Shown: positions 22,289 to 34,342 of the stretch, piece after piece
Position numbering within the stretch: position 1 is the stretch's first letter
Layout: each line of letters starts with the position of its first letter
Assembly: GCA_003216715.1 (NCBI GenBank)
Contig: QCIK01000011.1
Location: 1 to 41,183 of the forward strand
Direction of reading: 5' to 3'
Origin: Prochlorococcus sp. AG-402-L09
Lineage (GTDB): Bacteria > Cyanobacteriota > Cyanobacteriia > PCC-6307 > Cyanobiaceae
DNA: 41,183 nucleotides
Position numbers and translations under genes: made by a program
The notes under the pieces: model-generated
What the model was told of the DNA's origin: nothing
The model's database searches: none
Seen by the model: only the letters and a program-made list of their open reading frames with translations

Positions 22289-23380
22289 ATGCTTAAGGCC
22301 GGAATTGTTGGACTCCCAAATGTAGGAAAGTCCACTTTGTTTAATGCTCTTGTCGCGAATGCTCAAGCTCAAGCAGCAAACTTTCCTTTTTGTACGATTG
22401 AACCAAATGTAGGCTCTGTTTCAGTACCAGATCAACGTTTGAATTTGCTTAGTGAACTCAGTAAAAGTAAGCAAGTCATTCCAACAAGAATGGAGTTTGT
22501 TGATATTGCTGGTCTCGTTAAGGGTGCAAGTAAAGGGGAGGGACTTGGTAACAAATTCTTAGCAAATATTAGGGAGGTGGATGCAATAGTTCATGTGATT
22601 AGGTGTTTTAAGGATGATGATGTTATTCATGTCTCTGGATCAGTAGCCCCATCAAGAGATATTGAGATAATAAATTTAGAATTAGCATTATCAGATTTAA
22701 ATCAGATAGAAAAACGTAGAACTAGATTAAAAAAACAAATAAGTACTAATAAGGAAGCAAAGTTAGAAGATGAGGTGTTAGAAAAATTAAGCGATGCCCT
22801 AGAGAATGAAGAAGCAGTTAGGAGTGTTTCATTAACCGACGAAGAAAAAAAATTAATTAAACCATTAGGCTTGTTAACAGAAAAACCAATTATTTATGCA
22901 ACTAATCTTGGAGAAGATGAACTCGCGAAGGGTAATTCCTTTTCAGAAGAAGTAAATACTCTGGCAAGTAAAGAGGGTTCTGAATGTGTGAAGATTTCAG
23001 CCCAAGTTGAAGCAGAGTTAATTGAATTGGGAGAGGAAGAAAGAGATGATTATCTAACTGGTTTAGGCGTTGAAGAAGGAGGTTTAATTAGCCTTATTAA
23101 AGCAACATATCGATTATTGGGTTTAAGCACTTATTTCACTACTGGAGAAAAAGAAACTAAAGCTTGGACTATTTCAGATGGAATGACAGCTCCTCAAGCA
23201 GCTGGGGTCATTCATACAGACTTTGAAAAGGGATTTATTCGAGCTCAAACTATTTCATATAAAAAACTACTTGAAGCCGGATCTCTTTCTGAGGCTCGAA
23301 ACAAAGGTTGGTTAAGAAGTGAGGGTAAGGAATATGTCGTAAATGAGGGTGATGTTATGGAGTTTTTATTCAACGTCTAA
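22289..23380 (+). CDS. ychF: Redox-regulated ATPase YchF (OLA1 family)
   Basis: The 363-residue protein has the P-loop [14 protein letters not shown], the switch [20 protein letters not shown], the altered G4 motif ATNLGED that makes the family prefer ATP, and a C-terminal TGS domain starting near [11 protein letters not shown]. YchF binds ribosomes and modulates stress responses. Its last codons, [13 protein letters not shown] (about 23351-23380), are the sequence copied in the repeats of the downstream island, so the 3' end appears to serve as an integration target and the gene is kept intact by that. Confidence 0.97.
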
Positions 23381-23446
23381 AAGTTGAGTCATACCAAGGC
23401 TTTTTAGAAGTTAGACTAAGTCTCGGTCTAACAATTTAGTCTAACC
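23351..23446 (+). repeat. Attachment-like site A: ychF 3' end with right-side motifs
   Basis: The core GGAGTTTTTATTCAACGT is at 23359-23376, the last codons of ychF. The right inverted-arm sequence AGTCATACCAA is at 23387-23397. Starting 23 nt from that arm's first base is GTTAGAC (23410-23416), followed by TCTAAC at 23427 and again at 23440. No matching left arm exists inside ychF. In the terms of integrase elements this is a left-junction type site: native gene half plus element right arm. The element reading is inference; the repeats are seen directly. Confidence 0.7.
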
Positions 23447-23584
23447 TTTTGAGACGAAAAGTTGTATTTTTGAGACAAGTGAGAATAAGTGATGAATTAA
23501 ACTAAATCAACTAAGAGTTAGGCTAGATCTAGATCTTCTATAACGGATAGTATTATTAGATTCATTTGGATTAGGAAAAAATAA

Positions 23585-24973
23585 TTGGCGACTTACTATA
23601 TTCCAGCAAATACTCTTCATGTTGATTCGGGAGGAGCTGTTTATCAAGGTATAGAGCCTGATTTATCTGGTACTGATGGAGATGATGTTTATATCGATTC
23701 AAAAGACACTCATGGAATCCCATTCCTAGGTGATGGAGTTTATACATCAGGCTCAGATAAATATTATTTAGCCTTAGATGTCGATGCAAAGAATCGCGTA
23801 GAACATCCATATTACGAAGGTGGCGGGTATCCAAGTATAAAGAATTTCAATGTTAATACAGATAAAATATTTCTTCCCGAAGGAGTCTCAGGAGGCGATA
23901 TTCTGTTTGATAGGTATGAAATTGCAATATATAAAAATAATAAAGAAACAAAGGGATTTCTTCGCATAGTCTATGATCCACATAATTGTTGGAGAGATGT
24001 ATTTAAACCATCTTCATTTAGTAGGACTTGGATTGAGGATGAAATATTAATCTGGGGTAATGTTTCTGATCCAAAATCTTATTTAAGTATAGATAATGAA
24101 GAGAGAATTGCTAGTATGGACGGTGCTCCACAAGCTATTCAGGGAAATATTAATAGGTATAAAAATCCTGAAGGATATAATAAATGGATATATGATATTT
24201 CTCAATTAATCATAAAAAAGTATCCAGATGCCTTATATTTAGTTGATGTAATAGCAGGGGTTACATTCAATTCAAGTATACAAGGTTTAAAAAATAGAAT
24301 ATTTCTTAGTAATGGAGAAAGTGCTTTTAATACTTCATCAAATCAAAGCAATGAAGAAAGTAAAAATGAAACTAGTAATGGAGATGAACAAAAGATAGCC
24401 GATAATATTAATGATGTAATTGCAGGGATAAAGTATTTATTAGATGGAATTAAAGATTATGACGGCAATCTGCATGGATATCTAGGAGATGCACCAACAA
24501 CTGTGACTTATTCCTATAAATACCAAGGTCAATTAGATGTCAATAGTGATGGAACAATAGAAGCTGTATTTACCAATAGCATCAGTGGAAGATGGGTGAC
24601 ATCATCGATTGATCCCATCACAGGAGCCTTTGACTATACAAAGCATGGAGTCGGAGGAACAACAAGGATTGTGGGGATCTATCAAGATCCACTAGTAGCA
24701 AATGGAACGGTAGAAAAAGATAGCGTCTTTGATGGATCTCGAACGTTTATCAATGATCTAAAGCTTGATAATCTTATTCTTAAAACGGTTGGAGATTATG
24801 ACGGTGACGGATTTCAAGAACTTTATTGGAGCAAAGTAGATAACTCTGCCTACCTAAGAGCCGTGATGCATGCAGATGGCAATATCCAATACGCTAACTA
24901 TCAAAACCTGCAGCAAATGACTGATTACTTAACTAGTAATGGCTTTGCTGATACTGTTGCTTTGATTGCTTAG
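23585..24973 (+). CDS. Large unknown protein, probable calcium-binding surface or exported protein
   Basis: The 462-residue product has no classical signal peptide. Residues 25-60 have the acidic repeat-like stretch SGTDGDDVYIDS, similar to RTX-type calcium-binding motifs, and the C-terminal part has an EF-hand/FG-GAP-like loop GDYDGDGFQELYWSKVD. The middle is Asn/Ser-rich (NTSSNQSNEESKNETSNG, about 250-268). The start is TTG at 23585; no ATG lies nearby in frame. I do not recognise a full-length family; the C-terminal 130 residues look like a domain shared by marine cyanobacterial surface proteins. It is the first cargo gene after ychF, between sites A and B. Confidence 0.7.
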   Translation: MATYYIPANTLHVDSGGAVYQGIEPDLSGTDGDDVYIDSKDTHGIPFLGDGVYTSGSDKYYLALDVDAKNRVEHPYYEGGGYPSIKNFNVNTDKIFLPEGVSGGDILFDRYEIAIYKNNKETKGFLRIVYDPHNCWRDVFKPSSFSRTWIEDEILIWGNVSDPKSYLSIDNEERIASMDGAPQAIQGNINRYKNPEGYNKWIYDISQLIIKKYPDALYLVDVIAGVTFNSSIQGLKNRIFLSNGESAFNTSSNQSNEESKNETSNGDEQKIADNINDVIAGIKYLLDGIKDYDGNLHGYLGDAPTTVTYSYKYQGQLDVNSDGTIEAVFTNSISGRWVTSSIDPITGAFDYTKHGVGGTTRIVGIYQDPLVANGTVEKDSVFDGSRTFINDLKLDNLILKTVGDYDGDGFQELYWSKVDNSAYLRAVMHADGNIQYANYQNLQQMTDYLTSNGFADTVALIA

Positions 24974-25015
24974 TAAGAAATCAGAGAGTAAGGAGTTTAC
25001 GCTAGATCTTTTTAC

Positions 25016-25030
25016 TGTCTCAATGAGACA
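25016..25030. repeat. Short palindrome left of site B
   Basis: TGTCTCA and TGAGACA form 7-bp arms around a single A. It lies 9 nt before the first TCTAAC-type motif of site B. GAGAC also appears twice right of site A (about 23451 and 23473), so the motif may belong to the repeat system. Function unknown. Confidence 0.4.
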
Positions 25031-25038
25031 AGGATTTA

Positions 25039-33350: not shown

Positions 33351-33353
33351 AAT

Positions 33354-33378
33354 AAAAAAGCTGCAAGTAATTTGCAGC
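33354..33378 (-). terminator. Rho-independent terminator on the minus strand
   Basis: On the minus strand the stem GCTGCAA / TTGCAGC with a 5-nt loop is followed directly by six T. It would end transcription of the 45-residue gene at 33441-33578. It abuts the partial core of site E. Confidence 0.7.
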
Positions 33379-33410
33379 TCAGTTAACTAATTTTGATCTA
33401 TTAGAATTTG

Positions 33411-33439
33411 GATAAAATTTAAGGGTTTTAAATTTTATC
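33411..33439. terminator. Strong AT-rich hairpin after the small membrane gene
   Basis: GATAAAATTTAA and its perfect 12-bp complement flank a 5-nt loop. It begins 1 nt beyond the stop codon of the small minus-strand gene. It may stabilise that mRNA's 3' end or act with the GC-containing terminator further on. Confidence 0.5.
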
Positions 33440-33440
33440 T

Positions 33441-33578
33441 TTATCCAAATAAAGCTGAAGCTATACCAGCAACAGCAATTACTATTCCACCCCATTTAAT
33501 AACAGGCTGATCCTTGTCATAGGTATTTGAAACAAGAATTGCAGCGAGAAGGATTTCTACAAGGTTCTCATTGATCAT
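33441..33578 (-). CDS. Small single-helix membrane protein
   Basis: A 45-residue protein: MINENLVEILLAAILVSNTY, then DKDQPVIKWG and a hydrophobic glycine/alanine-rich end (GIVIAVAGIASALFG). Two hydrophobic stretches suggest a short hairpin or single span. I do not recognise it. A hairpin and a T-tailed terminator follow its stop, which supports it being a real transcript. It lies between repeat sites E and F. Confidence 0.5.
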   Translation of the reverse strand: MINENLVEILLAAILVSNTYDKDQPVIKWGGIVIAVAGIASALFG

Positions 33579-34342
33579 GGGTCGAAGCCATTGTTGTAGT
33601 TGTTGATACTTTTTCTAGCTGATCTTTCTTTGATGGGCAACAAATATTAAGTACTTATTTGAATAATTCTCCAAGGCTATAAAAAAATATCAATTAACGT
33701 TCTCTTGTTCAGATTGAGCACTTGAGTGGGACACCATCAGTCTAAAAAAGCATCTAACTTTATTGTTGCAATGGTTTAATTCTTAAATTTCGCTGTAATC
33801 AATTGATATGAGTGGATTTGCTGGAGTTTTTATTCAATATTCAAAAATTTTCATATTTACTATTCTCATGGCTCTCATGATGACTACTTTGTCTTTCTTC
33901 TAACTTCTGTATGAATTTTACTGAGCTACTAAGGAAATCAATACATCTCTTCTCTAGATGTTTTAAATCTATGACTAAGTAAACTTTGTAAAACTAATTT
34001 TTGTCTGAATTGTTTTTCAGCTTGAAAAAATGTTTCTGAATATAGTTTCTTGATATTAAAAAAACAAATCATAAATTGAAAATTACATGATTGCATAAAT
34101 CATTTGTATAAGGAGATTTACTATCATGAAACTCCTTCAGGTTTTTCTTTTCAGAATAGAACTAATCCACTAGCCTGTTCTTCGATCACTTTGCGGTTAT
34201 TTTTTGACTTAGCTCTAATCTAAATTTTATCTTTTTATAATATAGACTTATGATTAGCTAGTTTATATTTGACATTGAGCATAGTACTAGAGTGTATATT
34301 TGGTAGAGACTTTAAACCGTTTTATTAACCTTTGTTAGAACT
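33579..34342. other. 764-nt intergenic stretch with degenerate site F
   Basis: Apart from site F it holds a 15-codon frame (34126-34173, starting MKLLQV) preceded by a good ribosome site AAGGAG (34110-34115), and a TTGACA (34269-34274) with a TATATT (34295-34300) upstream of the TPR gene. The 20-nt spacer of that promoter pair is long. No RNA gene is evident. Confidence 0.5.
33753..33860 (+). repeat. Attachment-like site F, most degenerate copy
   Basis: TCTAACTTTATTG at 33753 and TCGCTGTAATCAA precede the arm TTGATATGAGT (33803-33813) and the core GGAGTTTTTATTCAA (33823-33837). About 37 nt from the arm is TCATA (33851-33855), a remnant of the right arm. It is the last copy seen and may mark the far end of the repeat-bearing island. 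Confidence 0.5.

Follow-up and report, generated by a model that had tools for sequence, protein, structure and literature searches.

Why should the end of a protein gene recur again and again downstream of that same gene? The question is raised by the first 41,183 bp of contig QCIK01000011.1 of Prochlorococcus sp. AG-402-L09 (hereafter the window, meaning the whole stretch analysed), in which the 3' end of an open reading frame (ORF) that we take from its sequence to be ychF recurs several times among other genes. A first-pass annotation, made from the sequence alone, attributed this pattern to repeated site-specific integration into the ychF 3' end. Linkage of the repeat to ychF, an empty site in another genome and integrases adjoining ychF in relatives support that proposal, and we assign a probability of roughly 85% to the reading that the ychF 3' end is the attachment site of small integrative elements, integrated serially and site-specifically, which in these genomes carry no integrase of their own.

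The sequence GGAGTTTTTATTCAACGT occurs without mismatch at 23359, where it lies within the last codons of ychF (ORF 22289-23380), and at 25109 and 26273, and with two mismatches at 30026 and 33823. These five matches at up to three mismatches compare with 0.09 expected from shuffled sequence, and every core copy in the window lies on the plus strand. The recurrence described by the first-pass annotation is therefore real, with the correction that the 18 bp stop one base before the stop codon of ychF and are not its very last bases. Its list of copies stands for 25109, 26273, 30026 and 33823; at 33334 the match is weak, with 4 of 17 positions mismatched (a Markov control yields 1.15 matches per window at that threshold), but this copy is backed by a left arm 5' of the core and by native ychF flank 3' of it. 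The two half copies it reported, at 31049 and 32389, proved to be left-arm pieces without a core, the arm motif giving five matches in the window against 0.05 in the control.

The repeat unit itself exceeds 18 bp, extending over approximately 100-170 bp and composed of a left arm, a core copied from the ychF 3' end (encoding MEFLFNV) and a right arm. The inverted arms TTGGCATGACT and AGTCATGCCAA are spaced 37 nt apart at 26253-26311, with TCTAAC repeats on their outer side. The copy at ychF has core and right arm but no left arm, and only a left arm and a core are present in the copies at 33334 and 33823. For the copy at 26190-26375, the predicted fold is better than that of its own shuffles (z -3.3, DNA parameters), and the predicted hairpin of the site places the conserved core close to its tip. 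Two Rfam matches were obtained on the window, both far under the gathering scores and neither at the repeats. The target gene and sites are the following:

22289-23380, plus strand: ychF (ORF), target gene, whose 3' end is the chromosomal attachment core
23359-23450, plus strand: attL-like junction, core within ychF followed by a right arm with TCTAAC repeats, left arm absent
25060-25165, plus strand: junction site, left arm, core and right arm
26191-26369, plus strand: junction site, the best-preserved copy of the window, with predicted hairpin
29944-30082, plus strand: junction site with two core mismatches
31049-31066, plus strand: eroded junction, left-arm piece, no core
32389-32440, plus strand: eroded junction, left-arm piece, no core
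33254-33350, plus strand: attR-like junction, degenerate core preceded by a left arm, right arm absent
33791-33840, plus strand: additional left arm and core, located in the second variable stretch that follows the native flank

A tRNA gene as the integration target was considered and rejected: no tRNA genes were found in the window, and the target is ychF.

The distribution of the repeat follows ychF closely. Elsewhere in the AG-402-L09 genome only one 15-bp match was found. Among 41 genomes of the genus the repeat was matched in 31 (over just 19 bp in G013). Nine of the ten genomes without a match have no ychF match in the assembly, and the ychF of the remaining one, G009, lacks the right arm. 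ychF was located in 29 of the 41 genomes, and 26 of these 29 ychF ends carry a right arm, as recognised by a loose pattern that also matches 296 of 5000 random 62-mers. In six single-contig genomes all matches (30/30) are placed at the end of ychF or no more than 11 kb downstream of it, in the orientation of ychF. Searched as an exact pattern in public genome contigs, the 20-base core returned 27 stretches, all titled Prochlorococcus. A more sensitive site model was built from 42 sites hand-picked for lack of indels and decay out of the 65 in alignment A2, which holds pattern matches with both arms recognisable. Over 400 genomes of the family, this model gave matches at E <= 0.01 in 226, many through one weak match, and in 20 further places that were fetched ychF stood beside the matches in 17 and not in 3, which indicates a few copies elsewhere. 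The tie to ychF proposed in the first-pass annotation thus holds in single-contig genomes and is loosened by these few copies, and neither pattern that it had named as contrary evidence, many loci unlinked to ychF or the same cargo order without the repeats, was seen in general. Sites on fetched stretches in which no ychF was seen are found at L124:7383-7478 (G007), L125:5133-5225 (G036), L135:7029-7115 (G083) and L109:6605-6689 (G026, judged by its list of ORFs); some neighbours of the L124 site have N-termini that, in our reading, resemble those of type IV pilins.

A clean ychF 3' junction in a strain without the island, which the first-pass annotation had suggested looking for, is provided by G009. 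In this genome a flank of about 300 bp begins 46 bp after ychF, with a terminator-like hairpin first, and flank of the same type is present in 19 other genomes. ychF and flank lie on one stretch in 17 genomes, G009 included, at a distance of 46 bp in G009, 113 bp in G025 and between 2.7 and 18.6 kb in the remaining 15, where the flank stands beyond the cassettes. Because the flank is displaced in other genomes and adjoins ychF in G009, the island can be placed as an insertion between the end of ychF and its terminator. The corresponding features of the window are:

33340-33655, plus strand: displaced native ychF flank, 81% identical to the G009 flank over 317 columns
33356-33378: terminator-like hairpin of the displaced flank

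The array foreseen by the first-pass annotation is present, with a nearer end: the array proper reaches only to 33334, the copy at 33823 falling past the native terminator. Beyond the native flank, positions 33656-37150 form a second variable stretch that contains a TPR-like gene and the left-arm-core site at 33823, and that measures about 0.4 kb in G009.

To what unit, then, does mobility belong? A pattern search allowing up to four mismatches over 36 oriented stretches gave 112 sites along the direction of ychF, a few of which are probably false (such as the one at G019 2748, within a gene), and four against it. Arrays contain up to eight sites, and the 76 intervals between consecutive sites have a median length of 2.2 kb, two of them, of 116 and 137 bp, being gene-less. 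ORFs of at least 85 amino acids (aa) number one to three in 68 of the 76 intervals, none in six and four in two; 94 of these 138 ORFs run along the array direction and 44 against it. Gene sets recur at varying positions, as does a three-gene metallophosphatase set present in 14 stretches. In the window the intervals are:

23377-25108, plus strand: cassette 1, 462-aa protein (23585-24973), with arm type 3 at either end
25127-26272, minus strand: cassette 2, two small unknown proteins (25262-25585, 25588-25854)
26291-30025, plus strand: cassette 3, three-gene set
30044-33333, no strand assigned: interval 4, phosphorylase-superfamily protein, TPR and small proteins, 189-aa protein

The two halves of a site follow different neighbours. 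Site pairs with the same upstream gene resemble each other in the left half (similarity 0.61 vs 0.52 for unrelated pairs) and not in the right (0.44 vs 0.43), and pairs with the same downstream gene (49 pairs) do so in the right half (0.63 vs 0.43) more than in the left (0.56 vs 0.52). In 500 label shuffles the observed value was reached 13 times for the left half and never for the right, in a test that omits the large mixed gene clusters c0, c4 and c5. When the outer arms were sorted into four types, the start and end of a cassette were of the same type in 38 of 43 cases (12.3 by shuffling), and in 23 of 27 without the two cassettes most used to define the types, whereas the two halves of one junction agreed in 4 of 38 cases (11.0 by shuffling); the test covers typed material, leaving aside 33 of 76 intervals and 74 of 112 sites, among them the ychF sites, which have no left arm. 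Paired cassette ends together with mixed junction halves identify the mobile unit as running from core to core, and such arm pairing is a prediction of integration of a core-to-core unit, not of a whole repeat that travels. The deficit of like halves, as low in 42 of 10,000 shuffles, suggests that like-armed cassettes are rarely neighbours; mutual information between junction halves was not clearly above shuffles (481 of 5000 as high). As far as comparison of sequences goes, the genomes show the insertion point, unit boundaries in the core and a varying order and content of cassettes.

The same kind of comparison shows the transfer of at least two cassettes, in addition to the paired arm types and to integrases behind ychF in four relatives. 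Between genomes the metallophosphatase gene shows an identity of 94.7-99.8%, higher than that of ychF (83.6-94.8%) in 78 of 78 pairs, and the ATP-grasp gene lies above ychF in 22 of 36 pairs, reaching 99.7% where ychF is 86.9% identical. These identities point to recent transfer of the metallophosphatase and ATP-grasp cassettes between lineages, the other cassette genes giving no clear sign of it. Core mismatches grow with distance from ychF (Spearman 0.32, P 0.005, with rows that are not independent), being level over ranks 1-3 and higher from rank 4, and more decay far from ychF is as expected if serial insertion adjoins the gene.

The first-pass annotation had also suggested looking in this genome for a tyrosine recombinase gene beside another copy of the site. 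None was found beside a site in the genome of the window; in four relatives (G173, G319, G354 and G118) one was found behind ychF. Among 35 genomes of the family, PF00589 gave one match directly behind ychF, in G173. Relatives of the G173 recombinase occur in 50 of 400 genomes, three more of them behind ychF, in G319, G118 and G354 (the latter with internal stops), making at least four ychF-adjacent recombinases with at most four candidates scored per genome. A recombinase stands directly behind the gene in 4 of 33 genomes with ychF located (36 examined), these four being of other genera than that of the window. The integrase start codon lies about 70-105 bp past the ychF stop in G173, G319 and G118, a cassette-like right arm, judged by eye, stands between ychF and integrase, and the far end of the G354 element, at a distance of 8.2 kb, is marked by a left arm with core. 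The element behind ychF in G118 (L176:5863-11658) encodes the integrase and an 818-aa T7-type single-subunit RNA polymerase (PF00940); it may be a phage relic or satellite, and the polymerase points to phages rather than integrative and conjugative elements (ICEs) as its source. In G173 a small serine recombinase (L140:10378-11049) lies about 1.9 kb from the ychF-site integrase.

Related recombinases are associated, again by eye, with similar arms around other cores. One such core copies the 5' end of an EVE-domain gene, of which two intact copies match PF01878, and another copies the 3' end of an iron-sulphur (Fe-S) assembly gene. Recombinases beside copies of the EVE-gene 5' end with ychF-like arms were observed in L178-L182, L184-L186, L189 and L190, mostly from other genera, and truncated EVE-domain gene 5' ends are also present in L179, L181 and L186, which suggests that this gene end is a second array locus of like kind. 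In G030, a member of the window's genus, a 529-aa tyrosine recombinase (L177:4808-6897) starts about 80 bp behind the Fe-S-assembly (PF01521) gene. The recombinase tree pairs the enzymes of G118 and G030 as sisters (100/100) and unites the ten labelled EVE-site in a single clade (100/99). Phage records yielded no relative of the G118 recombinase, and a PDB search with it returned one meaningless match.

Under the reading that we favour, an element circle ordered left arm, core and right arm would recombine inside the core with the ychF end, as lambda-type tyrosine recombinases do, leaving the 3' end of ychF intact and displacing its terminator downstream. The next element would enter the same site, producing a pile-up in one orientation with core copies flanking each element, in which every junction would derive its left arm from the preceding element and its right arm from the following one. 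The elements of this clade would have been reduced to cassettes, mostly with one to three cargo genes and without integrase, to be excised or inserted when a tyrosine recombinase that matches their arms acts on them in trans, its probable source being related elements, in part phage-like, with ychF as their integration site. As in lambda-type attachment, an identical core is common to target and element, with exchange within it. TCTAAC-type repeats in four paired types lie outside the core and may be arm-type binding sites; an integrase gene stands beside the attachment site in four relatives of other genera and was not found there in the window's genus. The circular form, the trans-acting helper, activity in the present day and the vehicle of transfer are elements of this scheme that we infer, and a helper from the recombinase family of the ychF, EVE and Fe-S sites is preferred, not proven. 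A wider proposal, tentative and falling slightly short of an even chance, is a cassette economy resembling that of integrons but lacking an integron: integrase-less cassettes would circulate between lineages across the genus through one landing site copied from a conserved gene, in at least four arm classes each served by its own recombinase in trans, partly phage-borne, with like-armed neighbours avoided or lost and with parallel arrays at the EVE-domain 5' end and the Fe-S-assembly 3' end.

Several observations weigh against this account. Both ends could be typed in 43 of 76 intervals and both halves in 38 of 112 sites, by arm types that were defined after inspection of the sequences. Cassette 3 of the window has unlike ends, its start arm being a composite of types 2 and 1 and its end arm of type 1. 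Identity exceeds that of ychF in 4 of 6 pairs for the nucleosidase, 4 of 15 for the 88-aa gene and 1 of 21 for the TPR gene. PF00589 (E <= 0.001) gave no match in the arrays of the 41 genus genomes, serine recombinases not having been searched as a family, and the AG-402-L09 genome (92.5% complete) has one tyrosine recombinase only, beside a ferrochelatase-like gene. At the integrase-bearing loci the identity of the arms was judged by eye, and a single clade of ychF-adjacent integrases, which we had considered, is not supported by the tree. Neither circle nor excision product was seen; the exact core pattern found no match in viral contigs, and a comparison of the site with phage records gave nine chance-level matches, all to Pseudomonas phages (E 0.6). 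Peptide patterns of the G173 and G118 recombinases matched 70 and 7 viral-contig stretches, respectively, none of which encodes a relative.

A rival that concerns only the identity of the helper is the chromosomal tyrosine recombinase of the window's genome: a host-owned enzyme of 386-387 aa, beside a gene we read as ferrochelatase, would then act on ychF cassettes much as an integron integrase does on its own. No other tyrosine recombinase was found in that genome, and many genomes of the genus have frames of 387-399 aa, a likeness judged by length only and with context checked in two. Frames of similar length occur in other genera too, however, two copies are distant in the tree from the arm-associated recombinases, and no site of this type was found near the gene in the window's genome; we consider this explanation unlikely. 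Also unlikely is homologous recombination alone, with the repeats as relics of old integration and cassettes swapped through repeats or shared flanks after DNA uptake. One-orientation repeats of 100-170 bp supply the homology, the gene-less 116- and 137-bp intervals may be deletions, and exchange of this kind would suit the composite start arm of cassette 3 and the metallophosphatase cassette, which occurs with two arm sets that switch near the TCTAAC repeats. Such exchange would nevertheless hardly keep the switch in similarity at the core, or cassette-end arm types paired over kilobases amid mixed junction halves, and it leaves the first insertion at ychF and the integrases behind it unexplained.

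A true integron, with attC sites and an IntI-type integrase, is very improbable. The outcome is alike, cassettes of changing order behind a fixed landing site, and the sites are imperfect palindromes, but the conserved part is the site centre, copied from ychF, and 44 of the 138 inter-site ORFs oppose the array direction; against an integron-integrase model with a cut-off of 265, the G173 recombinase scored 17.8 bits and the ferrochelatase-side enzyme had no match among those listed. Scattered repeats resembling repetitive extragenic palindromes (REP) or miniature inverted-repeat transposable elements (MITE), intergenic by chance, would account for several short, palindromic, mostly intergenic copies but are scarcely credible given confinement to a single locus in single-contig genomes (as far as the first, less sensitive search could show), one orientation, a core identical to a gene end and site halves that travel separately.

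The 462-aa protein of cassette 1 has a weak FG-GAP match, under the cut-off, and relatives in other arrays (cluster c19), and the gene pair of cassette 2 also occupies one interval in G004 and in G033. Cassette 3 encodes a circularly permuted ATP-grasp protein (26599-28032), an Alpha-E protein (28038-29012) and a transglutaminase-like protein (29009-29857), a set found at varying position in 9 genomes. Interval 4, with ORFs for the phosphorylase-superfamily protein (30091-30894, minus strand), TPR and small proteins (31081-32427, minus strand) and the 189-aa protein (32641-33210, plus strand), probably represents several eroded cassettes; relatives of its first and last proteins stand alone between sites elsewhere (e.g. 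G005 10429-11460, G040 1496-2405). The 189-aa protein recurs as a 0.9-kb cassette and has a 197-aa relative in the flank downstream of the island; it gave no significant family match, and its N-terminus seems to us to resemble ribbon-helix-helix proteins. PHROGs returned nothing for the 189-, 462-, 107- and 88-aa proteins of the window, and of seven window proteins submitted to PADLOC the nucleosidase alone matched defence models, weakly. No relaxase was named among 16 scanned proteins from the window and other arrays, one of which is a PF00437 secretion-type ATPase.

The ychF locus looks like a little-known route by which very small ocean genomes swap genes, with relatives carrying different packets. 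With its fixed position, known empty site, unit ends placed in the core and a turnover of single-operon cassettes, it would make gene gain and loss countable in wild populations, from single cells or metagenome reads, and the analysis names concrete recombinases and substrates. Among the papers found on Prochlorococcus with ychF, none was about integration, judging by titles and the opening of abstracts.

Comparison with known systems places these arrays among several precedents. In the portion of the literature available to us, the tycheposons of Prochlorococcus are described as cargo-bearing integrative elements linked to tyrosine recombinases, with tRNA genes at their borders (PMC10872708), and the likeness lies in that recombinase-linked, cargo-bearing character in picocyanobacteria. 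The ychF units differ in targeting a protein gene, in a window without tRNA, and in carrying no recombinase, an element-borne tyrosine recombinase being found only in the ychF elements of G173, G319, G354 (disrupted) and G118; integration targets in these organisms are thereby extended from tRNA genes to the ends of conserved protein genes. The same source, as far as its text was available, describes an additive island at tRNA-Lys of Methylopumilus with copies of the gene's last 20 bp and variable cargo, alike in its gene-end copies and different in its tRNA target (PMC10872708), and additive flexible genomic islands are described in Alteromonas (PMC4119200); the accessible parts of these accounts mention neither boundaries of units nor types of arm, nor integrases that match (PMC10872708, PMC4119200). 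An integrase family of picocyanobacteria, known to us from a partial account, lies near tRNA-Phe or tRNA-Cys with a small serine recombinase, at variable islands (PMC10187409). Compared by description only, it shares the organisms and the small serine recombinase also seen near the G173 ychF integrase, and differs in its association with tRNA genes as opposed to protein-gene ends. For phage P-SS2, the excerpt at hand places a proposed site close to tRNA-Met in MIT9313, where 36 bp of the match occur in five copies, and describes marine cyanobacterial genomes as being without identifiable prophages (PMC2784084).

The closest form is found in Streptococcus salivarius, where, in the part of the report at our disposal, cis-mobilizable elements (CIMEs) and microCIMEs form tandem accretions at the 3' ends of rpmG, rpsI, fda and rplL (PMC7563491). 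As there described, both systems stack integrase-less elements bounded by attachment (att) sites in variable order where a conserved protein gene has its 3' end, include gene-less mini-elements (130-220 bp in streptococci, 116 and 137 bp here), avoid tandems of certain like elements (never in tandem there, like-armed cassettes seemingly seldom neighbours here) and have the most decayed elements farthest from the target gene; the streptococcal accretions differ in comprising two or three elements, next to ICEs or integrative and mobilizable elements (IMEs) (PMC7563491). The ychF arrays, in contrast, reach eight sites and contain no tyrosine recombinase within the genus, and their units have att-site flanks and no integrase (PF00589) of their own. 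An integron is a cassette array behind one fixed landing site, and in this the ychF array is alike, differing in a core derived from a host gene, paired arms, genes in both orientations and the lack of an IntI-type match for the two recombinases scanned, those of G173 and of the ferrochelatase side. The best reading is that the ychF cassettes are CIME-like in form and integron-like in outcome.

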